This document shows positions 1,948 to 5,595 of a stretch of DNA of 64,000 bases, piece after piece. Under the pieces are notes generated by a model. The model did not search any database, was not told the origin of the DNA, and worked only from the letters and a program-made list of their open reading frames with translations. The translations under genes and the position numbers were made by a program. How positions within the stretch are numbered: position 1 is the first letter of the stretch; every line of letters begins with the position of its first letter. Origin of the DNA: Spartobacteria bacterium (GTDB lineage Bacteria > Verrucomicrobiota > Verrucomicrobiia > Chthoniobacterales > UBA10450); assembly GCA_003169975.1 (NCBI GenBank), contig PNAA01000046.1, forward strand, positions 1-64,000, read 5' to 3'.

Positions 1948-2523
1948 TCAGCTACGGCTACCGACGCTTCCGAGCTTAATCTCACCCTCTAGAAAGTGTT
2001 TAACGTCCTCCGCGTTCGGGGGCATATAGACAGAAGAGCCTTCCTCCTTGGCGCACAGGGTGGAAAGCTCCTTGTAAAGCCATATTAGCTCTCGATAAAG
2101 CGTGAACGAGTGACTATCGAGACGAGCCTTCTCAAGTAAGTTAGGTGGACCTGTAACCGCGGGGTAGTAACGCTCTATCACCCAGAAGAACGAGTTCCAT
2201 ACCATGCCCTTATCGAGAATCCCACGTTTGGTCATGTAAGCCAACTCCTCGAAAAACTCGAGCACCGGTGAATCTCCACTTGGGTCGATGCTCGACCGAT
2301 CTTGCAGCAACATCTTCGCAAAATGGCTCCGATGAGCAAGCCATTCTTCCGAATGAAAGAGGCTCACAAGGTCCGACACCATTTTAGCAGAAGTGGAGAG
2401 GCGCGTATGTTTAAGGTTCTTGCTGTGGAAGATAAGAGCGACAATGACGCCAGCCGAAGTTACGGCGACACCGATGCAGGCAGCGATCGCGCTGATTTGC
2501 GTCCATTGAGTAGGTGGGTCCAT
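1948..2523 (-). CDS. Hypothetical membrane-anchored protein (DUF4760-like), 191 aa
   Basis: Starts at ATG 2523 and has one N-terminal hydrophobic segment (ISAIAACIGVAVTSAGVIVAL) followed by a cytosolic helical region containing SLFHSEEWLAHR and VLEFFEELAYMTKRGILD. This single-TM plus helical layout resembles DUF4760-type proteins of unknown function. The octamer CCTAACGA lies 10 bases upstream of the start (2533-2540). The gene is divergent from the integron-type integrase, so it could be an old cassette or simply an orphan gene. Confidence 0.5.
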   Translation of the reverse strand: MDPPTQWTQISAIAACIGVAVTSAGVIVALIFHSKNLKHTRLSTSAKMVSDLVSLFHSEEWLAHRSHFAKMLLQDRSSIDPSGDSPVLEFFEELAYMTKRGILDKGMVWNSFFWVIERYYPAVTGPPNLLEKARLDSHSFTLYRELIWLYKELSTLCAKEEGSSVYMPPNAEDVKHFLEGEIKLGSVGSRS

Positions 2524-2555
2524 AGGTAGGGGCCTAACGAGGAGTGGGTCGGAAA

Positions 2556-2577
2556 ATCCCGCCTTTTTTTGCGGGAT
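2556..2577. terminator. Short hairpin with T-rich loop
   Basis: ATCCCGC at 2556-2562 pairs with GCGGGAT at 2571-2577 across a loop of C plus seven T. It lies between the divergent orphan gene (2523) and the integrase gene (2634). The T run is in the loop rather than after the stem, so terminator activity is uncertain; it could be a structured upstream site. Confidence 0.3.
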
Positions 2578-2888
2578 GATTCGGCCTAATCCGGGCTTGC
2601 TTCGGGTGAAGGGAGCCGCTAAAAGCCGAGTCCATGGATGCTTTTGTAGGGCCCGACCAGAGGGGTGGCAAGGAAAAAAAACTGCGCGATGTGATGCGGC
2701 TGAAGCACTACAGCCTGCGCACCGAGCAATCCTACTGCGATTGGGCGGAGCGCTTCATCGGTTTCCACGGGATGCGCCACCCGCGCGAGATGCGGGAAGC
2801 GGAGGTCGGCGAATTGCTCACTCATCTGGCACGGGAGGGCAGGGTGGCTCCTTCCACCCAGAATCAAGCGCTCAGTGCCCTGCTTTTT

Positions 2889-2963
2889 GACTCCTTCGCC
2901 CCCCCGGCTCAGTCGGCCTCTCGGCCTTCCCGTCTGACTCGCGGCTACCCTCGCCGCTCGGCT
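2889..2963 (+). repeat. 75-bp in-frame insertion inside the integrase gene
   Basis: Relative to IntI proteins, 25 extra codons lie between LLF and LYKQVL (conserved as LLFLYxxVL). The insert is exactly 75 bases and keeps the frame open. It is proline- and serine-rich when translated (DSFAPPAQSASRPSRLTRGY and onward). It contains small internal palindromes (GGCCTCTCGGCC; GCGG followed by CCGC) and an internal repeat of CTGACTC/TGACTC. It looks like a small dispersed palindromic element rather than a natural loop. Confidence 0.55.
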
Positions 2964-3163
2964 CTCTATAAACAGGTGCTTAAAGAGGAGATCGGGTGGC
3001 TCGGAAACGTGGAATGGGCGAAGCAACCGGCGCGCCTCCCGGTGGTCCTGACGCGAGATGAAGTGGACAAACTCTTTTCCCATTTGCAGGGCACGCCGCG
3101 CCTGCTGGCGGGGCTGCTCTACGGGAGCGGACTGCGCCTCATGGAATGCGTGCGACTGCGGGT

Positions 3164-3439
3164 TCACCCCGTGAGATAAGATGAGTCACTGTTACGTCTA
3201 TGTTCTCCGGTCTTTGGCTGATGCAAAGTTCTATGTGGGCTTGACACGTGATTTGCCGGCTCGGCTGGCTTTACACAATGACGGCGGGGTTACGTCCACC
3301 AAGAAGCGCGTACCATTGGAGCTTATTTACTGGGAAGGTTGCCTCAACGAAGGCGACGCGGCCCGGCGTGAGAAATACCTAAAGACGGCTTGGGGTAAAC
3401 GTTACCTCAAGGCCCGACTGAGCAAATATCTCACGGGGT
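3164..3439 (+). mobile_element. Compact GIY-YIG element with 16-bp terminal inverted repeats
   Basis: TTCACCCCGTGAGATA at 3163-3178 is the exact inverse of TATCTCACGGGGTGAA at 3427-3442. Between them lies a single gene, a GIY-YIG domain protein of 86 aa. The insertion separates integrase codons that are normally adjacent (RLRV and KDVDF), so about 276 bases were added; a short GGGT is present on both sides and may be the target duplication. The right repeat encodes the end of the GIY-YIG protein (Tyr-Leu-Thr-Gly-stop). Nothing else is present, so any transposition function must rest on this small nuclease-like protein or be supplied in trans. Confidence 0.75.
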
Positions 3440-3441
3440 GA
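3181..3441 (+). CDS. GIY-YIG domain protein (UPF0213-type), 86 aa
   Basis: The sequence CYVYVLRSLADAKFYVGLT gives the YVY/YVG version of the GIY-YIG signature. It is followed by RLALHN, the basic-helix LELIYWEG region and REKYLKTAWGKRYLKARL, typical of the stand-alone COG2827 family related to the UvrC N-terminal nuclease. Most members are uncharacterised; some GIY-YIG domains are homing or repair endonucleases. The gene fills an element bounded by perfect inverted repeats and its last four codons and stop are part of the right repeat. That points to a mobile passenger or driver rather than a resident housekeeping gene. Confidence 0.85.
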   Translation: MSHCYVYVLRSLADAKFYVGLTRDLPARLALHNDGGVTSTKKRVPLELIYWEGCLNEGDAARREKYLKTAWGKRYLKARLSKYLTG

Positions 3442-3720
3442 AAGATGTCGACTTTGGCTACGCGAAGATCACGGTGCGCGACGGCAAAGGCGCGAAAGAT
3501 CGCGTCATCATGCTCCCGCTCAACCTGACGGCGGCATTGCAGCGTCAGCGGCAGAAGGTGAAAGCGCAGTTTGAAGAAGACCTCGAGAGCGGTCTGGCCG
3601 GCGTGCATTTGCCGCATGCCCTGGCCAGAAAATATCCAAACGCAGCGGCGGCCAGCATCGGGACGTCGGGGAAAAAGTTCGCGACGGCGAGGCGCCCGCA
3701 CACGGCGGGCAGGCAGTGCG

Positions 3721-5055
3721 CTACCCGGACACTGCGCGAACCAGGCCGCACATGAGTGCGACGACGAATAGGGCCAGGGCGATCAAGCTGGCGTAGACAA
3801 CCGCGTCTTGCCTTCGCGCCCGGCGGGCGGCCTCGGCGTAGGGAATGCGGGTGAAACTTACCATGGTGTAAAGCGGGAGATAGAGGCCGGGGAGCAAGCC
3901 TTCGAGCGCGTGGTCGAGTTTCTTTTTCGCCCGGAAGGTGCGCGCGGCGGTCTTGTCGCGCATCTCGATGAAGTTGTGCACGGCAAGGTCGGCGAGGGCG
4001 TCGGCATTCTCCTTGCGCCGCCCGAAATACTCCGCGAAGGCGCGCTTACGCTCGTTAGGGAACTCGGCCAGACATTCGTCGAAGACGACGCAATCCTCGA
4101 AGGCGGCATTCATCCCCTGCCCGTAGAACGGCACGACGGCGTGGGCCGCGTCGCCCACGAGCGCGACCTTGTCTTCGTAGTGCCAGGGCGCGCAGCGGAT
4201 GGTGACGAGTGAGCCGGTCGCGTTTTCCTTGAAGTCGTCGAGCAGCGCCGGCATGAGCGGGACGGCGTCGGGGAATTCCTCGTGAAAAAAGCGCCGGAAA
4301 TCGTCGTCGCTCCGGATGGAGGCGAAGCTGCGCGGGCCGTCGAATTCCCAAAAGAGGGTGCAGGTGAAGGAGCCGTCGGGGTTGGGCAGCGCGATCATCA
4401 TGAAACTCTTGCGCGGCCAGATGTGAAGGGCGTTTTTCTCCATCCGCCAGGAGCCGTCGGCCGCGGGCGGGATGGTGAGTTCCTTGTAGCCGTGGGCGAG
4501 ATAGCTCTGGCTGTATTCGAAACGGTCGAGCCGTTGCAGTGCGCCGCGCACCGCGGAGAAGGCGCCATCGACCCCGATGACGGCGTCGGCCCGCGCCTCG
4601 ACCAACTGGTTGGTTTCCGTGTCGAGCAGTTGCGCGGTGGGCGCGTTGAGGTCGACATCGGTGCAGCGGTGATTGAATCTCACCCGCACGTTGGGATAAC
4701 GCTGCGCGGCTTCGATCACGACGGTGTTGAGCGCGCCGCGGCCGATCGAGTTGATGTATTTGTTCGGGTCGCGGTCGTAGGGCGAGAAATGCAGGTCGCC
4801 CGAGCGGTCATGGATCATGCGGCCGCGCATCGGGATGGCGTGCTGGAGGACTTCATCGGCGATGCCGAGCTGTTGCAAGGCGTGGATGCCGCGGGTGGAG
4901 AGAGCGAGATTGATCGAGCGTCCGCCGACGGTGTTGCCCGCGCGCGGGTCGGCGCGGCGCTCGTAGAGATCGATCTCGTAACCTCGCCGGCCGAGGTAGC
5001 CGGCGAGCAGTCCGCCGGCGAGTCCGCTGCCGATGAGGGTGAATTTTGATCCCAT
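3721..5055 (-). CDS. kmo: Kynurenine 3-monooxygenase
   Basis: FAD-dependent hydroxylase converting L-kynurenine to 3-hydroxykynurenine with NADPH and O2. Residues 7-14 carry the Rossmann motif GSGLAGG, LYERRADPR follows the second strand, and ALVGDAAHAVVPFYGQGMNA is the FAD-ribityl (GD) motif with the KMO-typical PFxGQGMN. Near the C terminus a hydrophobic segment (VVYASLIALALFVVALMCGL) matches the membrane anchor of KMO. Length (444 aa) is normal. Its 3' end is directly next to integron integrase debris. Kynureninase is encoded 550 bases upstream on the same strand, after an oppositely oriented receiver gene. Confidence 0.93.
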   Translation of the reverse strand: MGSKFTLIGSGLAGGLLAGYLGRRGYEIDLYERRADPRAGNTVGGRSINLALSTRGIHALQQLGIADEVLQHAIPMRGRMIHDRSGDLHFSPYDRDPNKYINSIGRGALNTVVIEAAQRYPNVRVRFNHRCTDVDLNAPTAQLLDTETNQLVEARADAVIGVDGAFSAVRGALQRLDRFEYSQSYLAHGYKELTIPPAADGSWRMEKNALHIWPRKSFMMIALPNPDGSFTCTLFWEFDGPRSFASIRSDDDFRRFFHEEFPDAVPLMPALLDDFKENATGSLVTIRCAPWHYEDKVALVGDAAHAVVPFYGQGMNAAFEDCVVFDECLAEFPNERKRAFAEYFGRRKENADALADLAVHNFIEMRDKTAARTFRAKKKLDHALEGLLPGLYLPLYTMVSFTRIPYAEAARRARRQDAVVYASLIALALFVVALMCGLVRAVSG

Positions 5056-5178
5056 TGGGCTCTACCGTGGCCGTTTCCGGTAATTTGCCAAGCCCGGAAG
5101 GCGCGCGTCGATTGGCGATCCTACGGTTGCAAACGCCGCGCGTGGCACTATGGCTGCTCAAAGTATGCTTTCACCGCG

Positions 5179-5595
5179 ATGAAACCTGAGCCCGACCCGG
5201 ACCAAAACGAACGCAGCGGCGGGACTTTTGAGCTTAAAGCCATCCTCCTGGTGGACGACGACAAGCAGCTCGCCTCGGCCTTGCAGTGGATTCTGGCGGA
5301 CGCAAATTTTCTCGTCGACGTAGCCTTTGACGGCAACGAAGCCCTGCTCAAGGTCAAGGCCCACGATTACGACGCGGTCATCTGCGACCTGAAAATGCCG
5401 CACCTGCGGGGCGACGAGTTTTATCTCCAGGCAAGGGAAATGCGTCCCACCCTGTCCGATCGTTTCATCTTCATCACCGGCTACGCAACCGATCCTAACA
5501 TCCGTCAATTCCTGATTGAGAACGAGGTCAAATTCCTCGTGAAACCTTTCCCGATTAAGGGGCTGATCTCCTGCGTGCGGGAAATGTCTCGCTAG
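5179..5595 (+). CDS. Single-domain response regulator
   Basis: A 138-aa CheY-like receiver: AILLVDDDKQ holds the acidic pair, DAVICDLKMP the phosphoacceptor Asp, FITGY the conserved Thr, and KFLVKPF the Lys. There is no output domain, so it should work through protein contacts or as a phosphorelay intermediate. It is inserted between kmo and kynU on the opposite strand, with no kinase next to it. A role in regulating kynurenine use is possible from position only. Confidence 0.85.
   Translation: MKPEPDPDQNERSGGTFELKAILLVDDDKQLASALQWILADANFLVDVAFDGNEALLKVKAHDYDAVICDLKMPHLRGDEFYLQAREMRPTLSDRFIFITGYATDPNIRQFLIENEVKFLVKPFPIKGLISCVREMSR

Follow-up and report, generated by a model that had tools for sequence, protein, structure and literature searches.

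In the REPtrons formed by REP sequences and RAYT enzymes, a small enzyme gene lies between inverted palindromic repeats that carry a 4-nt tag, and many gene-less copies, often arranged as inverted pairs, are dispersed over the genome. Their enzyme is an HUH tyrosine transposase and their tag is GTAG. TIRtrons, whose TIRYT enzyme is an IS200-like tyrosine transposase, likewise place one small gene between terminal inverted repeats (TIRs) that occur in moderate numbers of dispersed copies, and many of these TIRs contain the motif GGGGWSAS. A TIR-bounded gene accompanied by short non-autonomous derivatives is also the plan of insertion sequences with their MITEs. A separate group of REPs, defined by Di Nocera and colleagues in 2013 and including dRS3 of Neisseria and RPE-4/RPE-6 of Rickettsia, is characterised by a tag CGTC, TGTC or CCTC, an 8-9 bp stem starting with AT, a 4-5 nt loop and a tail CCA, and no associated transposase was found for it (PMC3733652). 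Selfish GIY-YIG genes are represented by homing endonucleases, both the free-standing Seg proteins of phages and the intron-borne I-TevI and I-BmoI, which copy themselves into the cognate allele. To our knowledge, small bacterial GIY-YIG genes are common and mostly unexplained.

The window analysed here, a stretch of 64,000 nucleotides from a Spartobacteria bacterium (GCA_003169975.1, contig PNAA01000046.1), contains a unit that shares with REPtrons and TIRtrons the small gene between inverted repeats and, in related genomes, the dispersed gene-less copies. However, its gene encodes a GIY-YIG protein instead of an HUH tyrosine transposase or another enzyme of the TIRYT fold, with no Y1 gene between the repeats; its tag is TTYA (CGTC or TGTC in the REP-type relatives) instead of GTAG; and a single arm of the CCCCGTGAGATA family is itself no hairpin, unlike the REP of RAYT REPtrons. 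It resembles insertion sequences with MITEs but lacks a DDE, HUH, tyrosine or serine transposase, is mostly found without target-site duplication and, at 280 bp, is much smaller than a usual insertion sequence. In contrast to homing endonucleases, it is bounded by TIRs, occurs at many unrelated places and is accompanied by non-autonomous derivatives. Repeats of the published CGTC structure also lie beside GIY-YIG genes, and we propose the latter as partners of these REPs, which were described without a dedicated transposase. We consider it probable that the window unit represents an autonomous member of a REPtron- or IS-like class that has a GIY-YIG nuclease as its sole enzyme and that also takes in the CGTC REPs. 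It would be among the smallest autonomous elements known to us.

A GIY-YIG unit within an integron-type integrase gene

The features of the locus are collected in the table below. The two arms match at 16 of 16 nt in inverted orientation and are clearly the top inverted pair within positions 2000-5500; each arm is best divided into a 12-nt core, CCCCGTGAGATA, and a 4-nt tag TTYA. The only gene between them is the GIY-YIG gene, whose Pfam match lies above the cut-off, and no HUH/Y1 tyrosine transposase is encoded there. Pfam returned the GIY-YIG domain only, the gene matched nothing in NCBIfam or PHROGs, and no known transposase family was detected with these three collections. The protein weakly matches the UPF0213 structures 1ywl and 1zg2, and the phages searched hold distant GIY-YIG relatives only. 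An Rfam scan of eight loci gave nothing matching over the elements.

Table. Features of the interrupted integrase locus (window positions)
Feature	Positions	Strand	Details and basis
5' part of the interrupted integron-type tyrosine integrase (target)	2634-3162	+	Phage_int_SAM_4, E 4.8e-23; paralog alignment
Whole mobile unit	3163-3442	+	280 bp with both tags, 276 bp net insertion; filled/empty comparison
Left terminal inverted repeat	3163-3178	+	TTCACCCCGTGAGATA; tag TTCA (3163-3166) and core CCCCGTGAGATA
GIY-YIG nuclease gene, 86 aa	3181-3441	+	C-terminus ..WGKRYLKARLSKYLTG; Pfam PF01541, E 2.7e-13
Right terminal inverted repeat	3427-3442	-	TATCTCACGGGGTGAA; encodes Tyr-Leu-Thr-Gly-stop; tag TGAA (3439-3442) is native target
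Integrase continuation past the insertion	3443-3655	+	no paralog alignment past about 3655; catalytic end lost

Intact integrases read CGGG-TGAA-GGATG at the junction, as seen in a paralog from the same genome with 75% identity over the query (G000:C33, equal to L130) and in the homologs L124 and L149; hence a unit of 280 bp adds a net 276 bp. Since the empty sites keep TGAA, the right TGAA is native and the left TTCA arrived with the element. An earlier note on this DNA, made from the sequence alone, had described a 276-bp GIY-YIG unit between exact 16-bp inverted repeats inside an integron integrase. The arms, the Pfam match and the intact paralog confirm this description; its figure of 276 bp holds as the net insertion, the unit with both tags being longer because the right TGAA belongs to the host. 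The note's reading of the right repeat as the end of the gene is borne out by the codons TAT CTC ACG GGG TGA in the right arm, and the integrase codons that it saw split by the insert indeed rejoin as RLRV-KDVDF. The alignment of empty and filled sites also found uninterrupted integrase relatives without the unit, and the mobile reading survives it. In the window's own genome the 16-mer is confined to this pair, even when two mismatches are allowed, so evidence for mobility had to come from other genomes.

The integrase gene has been altered elsewhere as well. Positions 2888-2962 hold another insertion, of 75 nt, which is in frame, missing from the paralog and a repeat with more copies in the window genome (about 78% at C5:50258-50333). 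Similarity to the paralog ends in the interval 3655-3755, with the loss of the catalytic C-terminus, which makes the integrase a pseudogene candidate even disregarding the GIY-YIG insertion.

Recurrence, derivatives and target sites of the element

An exact scan with the 16-mer matched at least 119 genome stretches, and the matches listed include Verrucomicrobiota, Bacteroidota, Omnitrophota, Planctomycetota, KSB1, Poribacteria, Patescibacteria and other phyla. Twenty-five intact units from Verrucomicrobiota, Bacteroidota, Ignavibacteriota, Rhodothermota and KSB1 follow the same plan, with both repeats, an intact GIY-YIG frame and the stop codon within the right repeat. Their proteins share a conserved tail, WGKRYxKxRxxxYLTG, and dN/dS between close pairs of unit genes (0.06-0.39, median 0.18) reveals purifying selection. 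In loci fetched by the repeat, a repeat core is found no more than 200 bp from 33 of the 35 GIY-YIG ORFs, a figure that, owing to this way of sampling, describes adjacency and not frequency. Relatives ending in YLTG therefore do carry matching upstream repeats, as the earlier note had envisaged. Only 5 of 28 inner branches of the protein tree are well supported, so that horizontal transfer is suggested rather than demonstrated.

Gene-less repeat pairs span 36-117 bp and prefer total lengths of about 40-46, 59-73 and 101-109 bp; short elements of 43, 67 and 104 nt fold as hairpins well beyond shuffled sequences (z of -9.0, -5.3 and -4.4, respectively), and a fold at L091:4594-4660, drawn from wrong coordinates, is excluded from these. 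Core copies reach 35 in a 7.2-Mb genome, compared with 0-1 per genome for the reversed-pattern control (0 in that genome). Two 104-bp copies within one genome are 99% identical internally, while their flanks are at the level of random DNA, and two gene units with internal deletions measure 207 and 220 bp (L120 and L124). Judged by their sequence, the short gene-less copies are probably non-autonomous derivatives of the unit, resembling the hairpins of MITEs or REPINs. TIRs around one gene together with gene-less derivatives are the arrangement of insertion sequences and MITEs, and the dispersed copies, often in inverted pairs, are that of REPtrons, which applies to the relatives, the window genome having one pair only. 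The element sites are many and unrelated, both within and between genomes, as opposed to a cognate allelic site of the homing type. Two genomes (G298 and G302), metagenome bins that are perhaps incomplete, carry 13-15 core copies with no GIY-YIG gene of this subfamily detected; G298 (locus L026), a Rikenellaceae bin of 1.5 Mb, has 13 core copies, and neither such a gene nor a Y1 transposase was detected in it.

Retained target bases were counted by comparison with the homologous empty site after removal of both 16-nt arms. Four nucleotides are retained in the window (TGAA, the right end) and at L018 (TTCA, the left end). The same number remains in most nested copies; nested examples are L068, L024 and L095, inserted at TTYA^CCCC of other copies. 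Exceptions are the integrase sites L052, shared with L011 (3 nt), and L108 (5 nt), and the repeat family L105/L012 (2 nt), although the relatives at these sites are too divergent to fix exact breakpoints. A few copies read TGAA...TGAA, as target duplication would give, but most comparable sites have no duplication. A direct target duplication is absent at the window site; a clean 4-bp duplication was considered there and dropped, as the left TTCA differs from the right TGAA, which is also what the native site reads. A reading-frame test of 18 elements was mixed, with frame 1 in 9 of them, and we therefore regard the retention of a single 4-nt tag without target duplication as a common but not proven rule.

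Full units often lie in or near integron-type integrase genes (L018, L052, L011, L056, L108, L124 and the window), and those of L052 and L011 occupy the identical integrase site. At L036, L069, L057 and L006, a YhcG/DUF1016-like gene, recognised by eye, seems to be split by units at two sites close to each other, and at the first three the gene stays in frame if TGAA is kept (flanks read by eye). At L022 and L122, the translated flanks suggest that RAYT-like (Y1) transposase genes have been interrupted by short main-repeat copies. Other mobile-element genes may serve as a refuge or hotspot for the units.

Other repeats beside GIY-YIG genes, including CGTC-tagged REPs

Among 144 GIY-YIG genes with usable flanks, 119 remained after the main repeat type had been set aside. 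Flanking inverted repeats scoring at least 14 were found at 14 of these 119 genes; the same loci supplied 1137 control positions, of which 2 reached that score, each being an instance of the main repeat. The 14 may include unrelated repeats and simple hairpins, so that 14/119 is an upper estimate of true units, and a clear repeat is absent at most GIY-YIG genes outside the main family. One Elusimicrobia genome carries a unit with GCCCCGCCCTTTTGAGA arms and two short GCCCCGCCCTTTTGAGA pairs of 86 and 107 bp. A TGTC repeat, TGTCATTCTGAGCGAAGCGAAGAATC (TGTCATTCTGAGCG..), is present in 137 and 147 copies in two Verrucomicrobiota genomes; it lies on either side of GIY-YIG genes at L297, L310 and L364 and sits at the stop codon of L291/L369, with the right copy supplying the GIY-YIG C-terminus LDSSLRSE or DSLRSE and the stop. 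In the genomes G122 and G075, the TGTC repeat occurs at none of 14 Y1 transposase loci, several of which carry GTAG-tagged REPs, the known partner of RAYTs. The window genome holds seven TGTCATTCTGAGCG-type repeats with up to three mismatches (e.g. C5:132037, C30:61580 and C40:74242). In addition, a GIY-YIG copy of the window genome that contains a stop codon (L004) shares the inverted repeat CGTAAAAGCTT / CGCGTAAAAGCTT with L192 (G309), possibly a further repeat type.

The published structural description of CGTC REPs was applied to 18 GIY-YIG genes on plasmid and chromid records. Such REPs lie near 12 of the 18 genes and on both sides, within 120 bp, of 8, in 7 of these in inverted orientation; the other 10 are not flanked on both sides. 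The same replicons provided six 49-kb stretches with 18,000 random control positions, none of which was flanked on both sides. Among 819 ORFs, the five that are REP-flanked all lie at GIY-YIG coordinates, at least one of them being an overlapping antisense frame. The replicons with flanked genes belong to Azospirillum lipoferum, Shinella, Rhizobium, Neorhizobium and Aeromonas, and Neisseria gonorrhoeae adds a case with dRS3. In A. lipoferum, the GIY-YIG gene and its REPs lie inside the suf operon, and all four REPs of the stretch are at the GIY-YIG gene. The repeats beside the plasmid genes conform to the CGTC REP structure, whereas the window repeat does not. On a Planktothrix agardhii plasmid (L375, 692-976), a GIY-YIG gene without CGTC REPs is flanked on one side by a gene for an MmeI-like restriction enzyme and on the other by drmA of DISARM.

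The pairing of other GIY-YIG subfamilies with other repeats, CGTC and TGTC REPs among them, suggests that the GIY-YIG nucleases are the dedicated enzymes of a REPtron-like class. With somewhat less assurance than for the window unit, we favour the wider view that stand-alone GIY-YIG nucleases, each with its own palindrome, constitute an unrecognised DNA-mobilising class in bacteria, drive TIR elements of sizes down to 280 bp and supply the missing enzyme of CGTC REPs (dRS3 and the TGTCATTCTGAGCG type).

Proposed mechanism, rival explanations and meaning

We propose a hypothetical mechanism in which the nuclease would recognise its own palindromic end and cut the tag/core junction TTYA^CCCC as well as targets resembling TTYA/TRAA, after which host replication or repair would install one copy, so that one target tag is kept and no direct duplication is made. 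Sequential nicking is the reported mode of action of I-BmoI, a GIY-YIG homing enzyme (PMC3161791). The sequences themselves establish the layout of the units, their recurrence, their excess over chance, their placement at non-homologous sites, the selection on the gene and the insertions into existing copies, and we infer that the GIY-YIG protein is responsible for both catalysis and transposition. The suggestion in the earlier note of a family able to act as a minimal mobile element gains support from the uninterrupted relatives without the unit and from the 25 repeat-flanked units, with enzyme-driven movement as the presumed cause. Our analysis adds the abundant short gene-less elements formed by the repeats, the retention of a single 4-nt tag and the involvement of other GIY-YIG subfamilies and CGTC REPs.

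The main rival invokes help in trans: HUH tyrosine transposases of the RAYT or TIRYT (IS200/IS605) type would move the repeats and the GIY-YIG gene would be a passenger or accessory. Insertion of IS200/IS605 elements likewise keeps one tag and makes no target duplication, much as the 4-nt tag is kept here, and the TIRYT motif GGGGWSAS resembles GGGGTGAA of the main repeat. A check of 30 genomes moreover found Y1_Tnp genes in 29, the window genome among them. An argument against RAYT action from the absence of Y1 genes consequently failed, and since these genes occur in nearly all genomes, adjacency was used to weigh Y1 against GIY-YIG. It favours GIY-YIG: of the two Y1 ORFs present in the loci, one is found 200 bp or less from a core, as against 33 GIY-YIG ORFs. 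The Y1 loci of G122 and G075, with their GTAG REPs in place of the TGTC repeat, also speak against the rival, as does the 2013 survey, in which CGTC repeats flanked no tyrosine transposase (PMC3733652), and a passenger would not be expected to match different repeats in each subfamily. We therefore judge mobilisation by a tyrosine transposase unlikely, though it deserves more weight than the other alternatives.

A GIY-YIG protein that binds or processes palindromes, for instance in repair or copy control, could also leave the mobilising to recombination between dispersed repeats. The repair nucleases UvrC and Slx1 are among its relatives (PMC1564403), and some GIY-YIG subfamilies are loosely tied to repeats. 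This explanation seems improbable to us in view of the precise insertion into coding sequence, the clean empty site and the copies with unrelated flanks, and because a stop codon embedded in the repeat and derivatives by internal deletion are the anatomy of a mobile unit. That a small gene merely happened to lie between inverted repeats can practically be dismissed, as the 16/16 arms recur in 25 intact units with a strong excess over controls.

Mobilisation by the GIY-YIG nuclease thus remains our preferred explanation. In open PMC papers, we found no report that links GIY-YIG proteins to TIR elements or REPs, or that mentions the 16-mer itself. GIY-YIG mobile palindromic elements apparently form a widespread class that is undescribed in this literature, and within its bounds the class is new by exclusion, lacking an HUH enzyme, a GTAG tag, a known transposase and a homing site. 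More cautiously, it may be labelled a new, non-homologous variant of REPtrons. Named and partly cultured organisms carry such units, which makes the idea testable at the bench, and, if it is true, the units might be of use as a compact DNA-insertion system. The statistical excess and the specific anatomy tie unexplained GIY-YIG genes to the transposase-less CGTC REPs (PMC3733652). If the nuclease drives movement, these genes would represent a class of DNA-mobilising enzymes distinct from the DDE, HUH, tyrosine and serine families.
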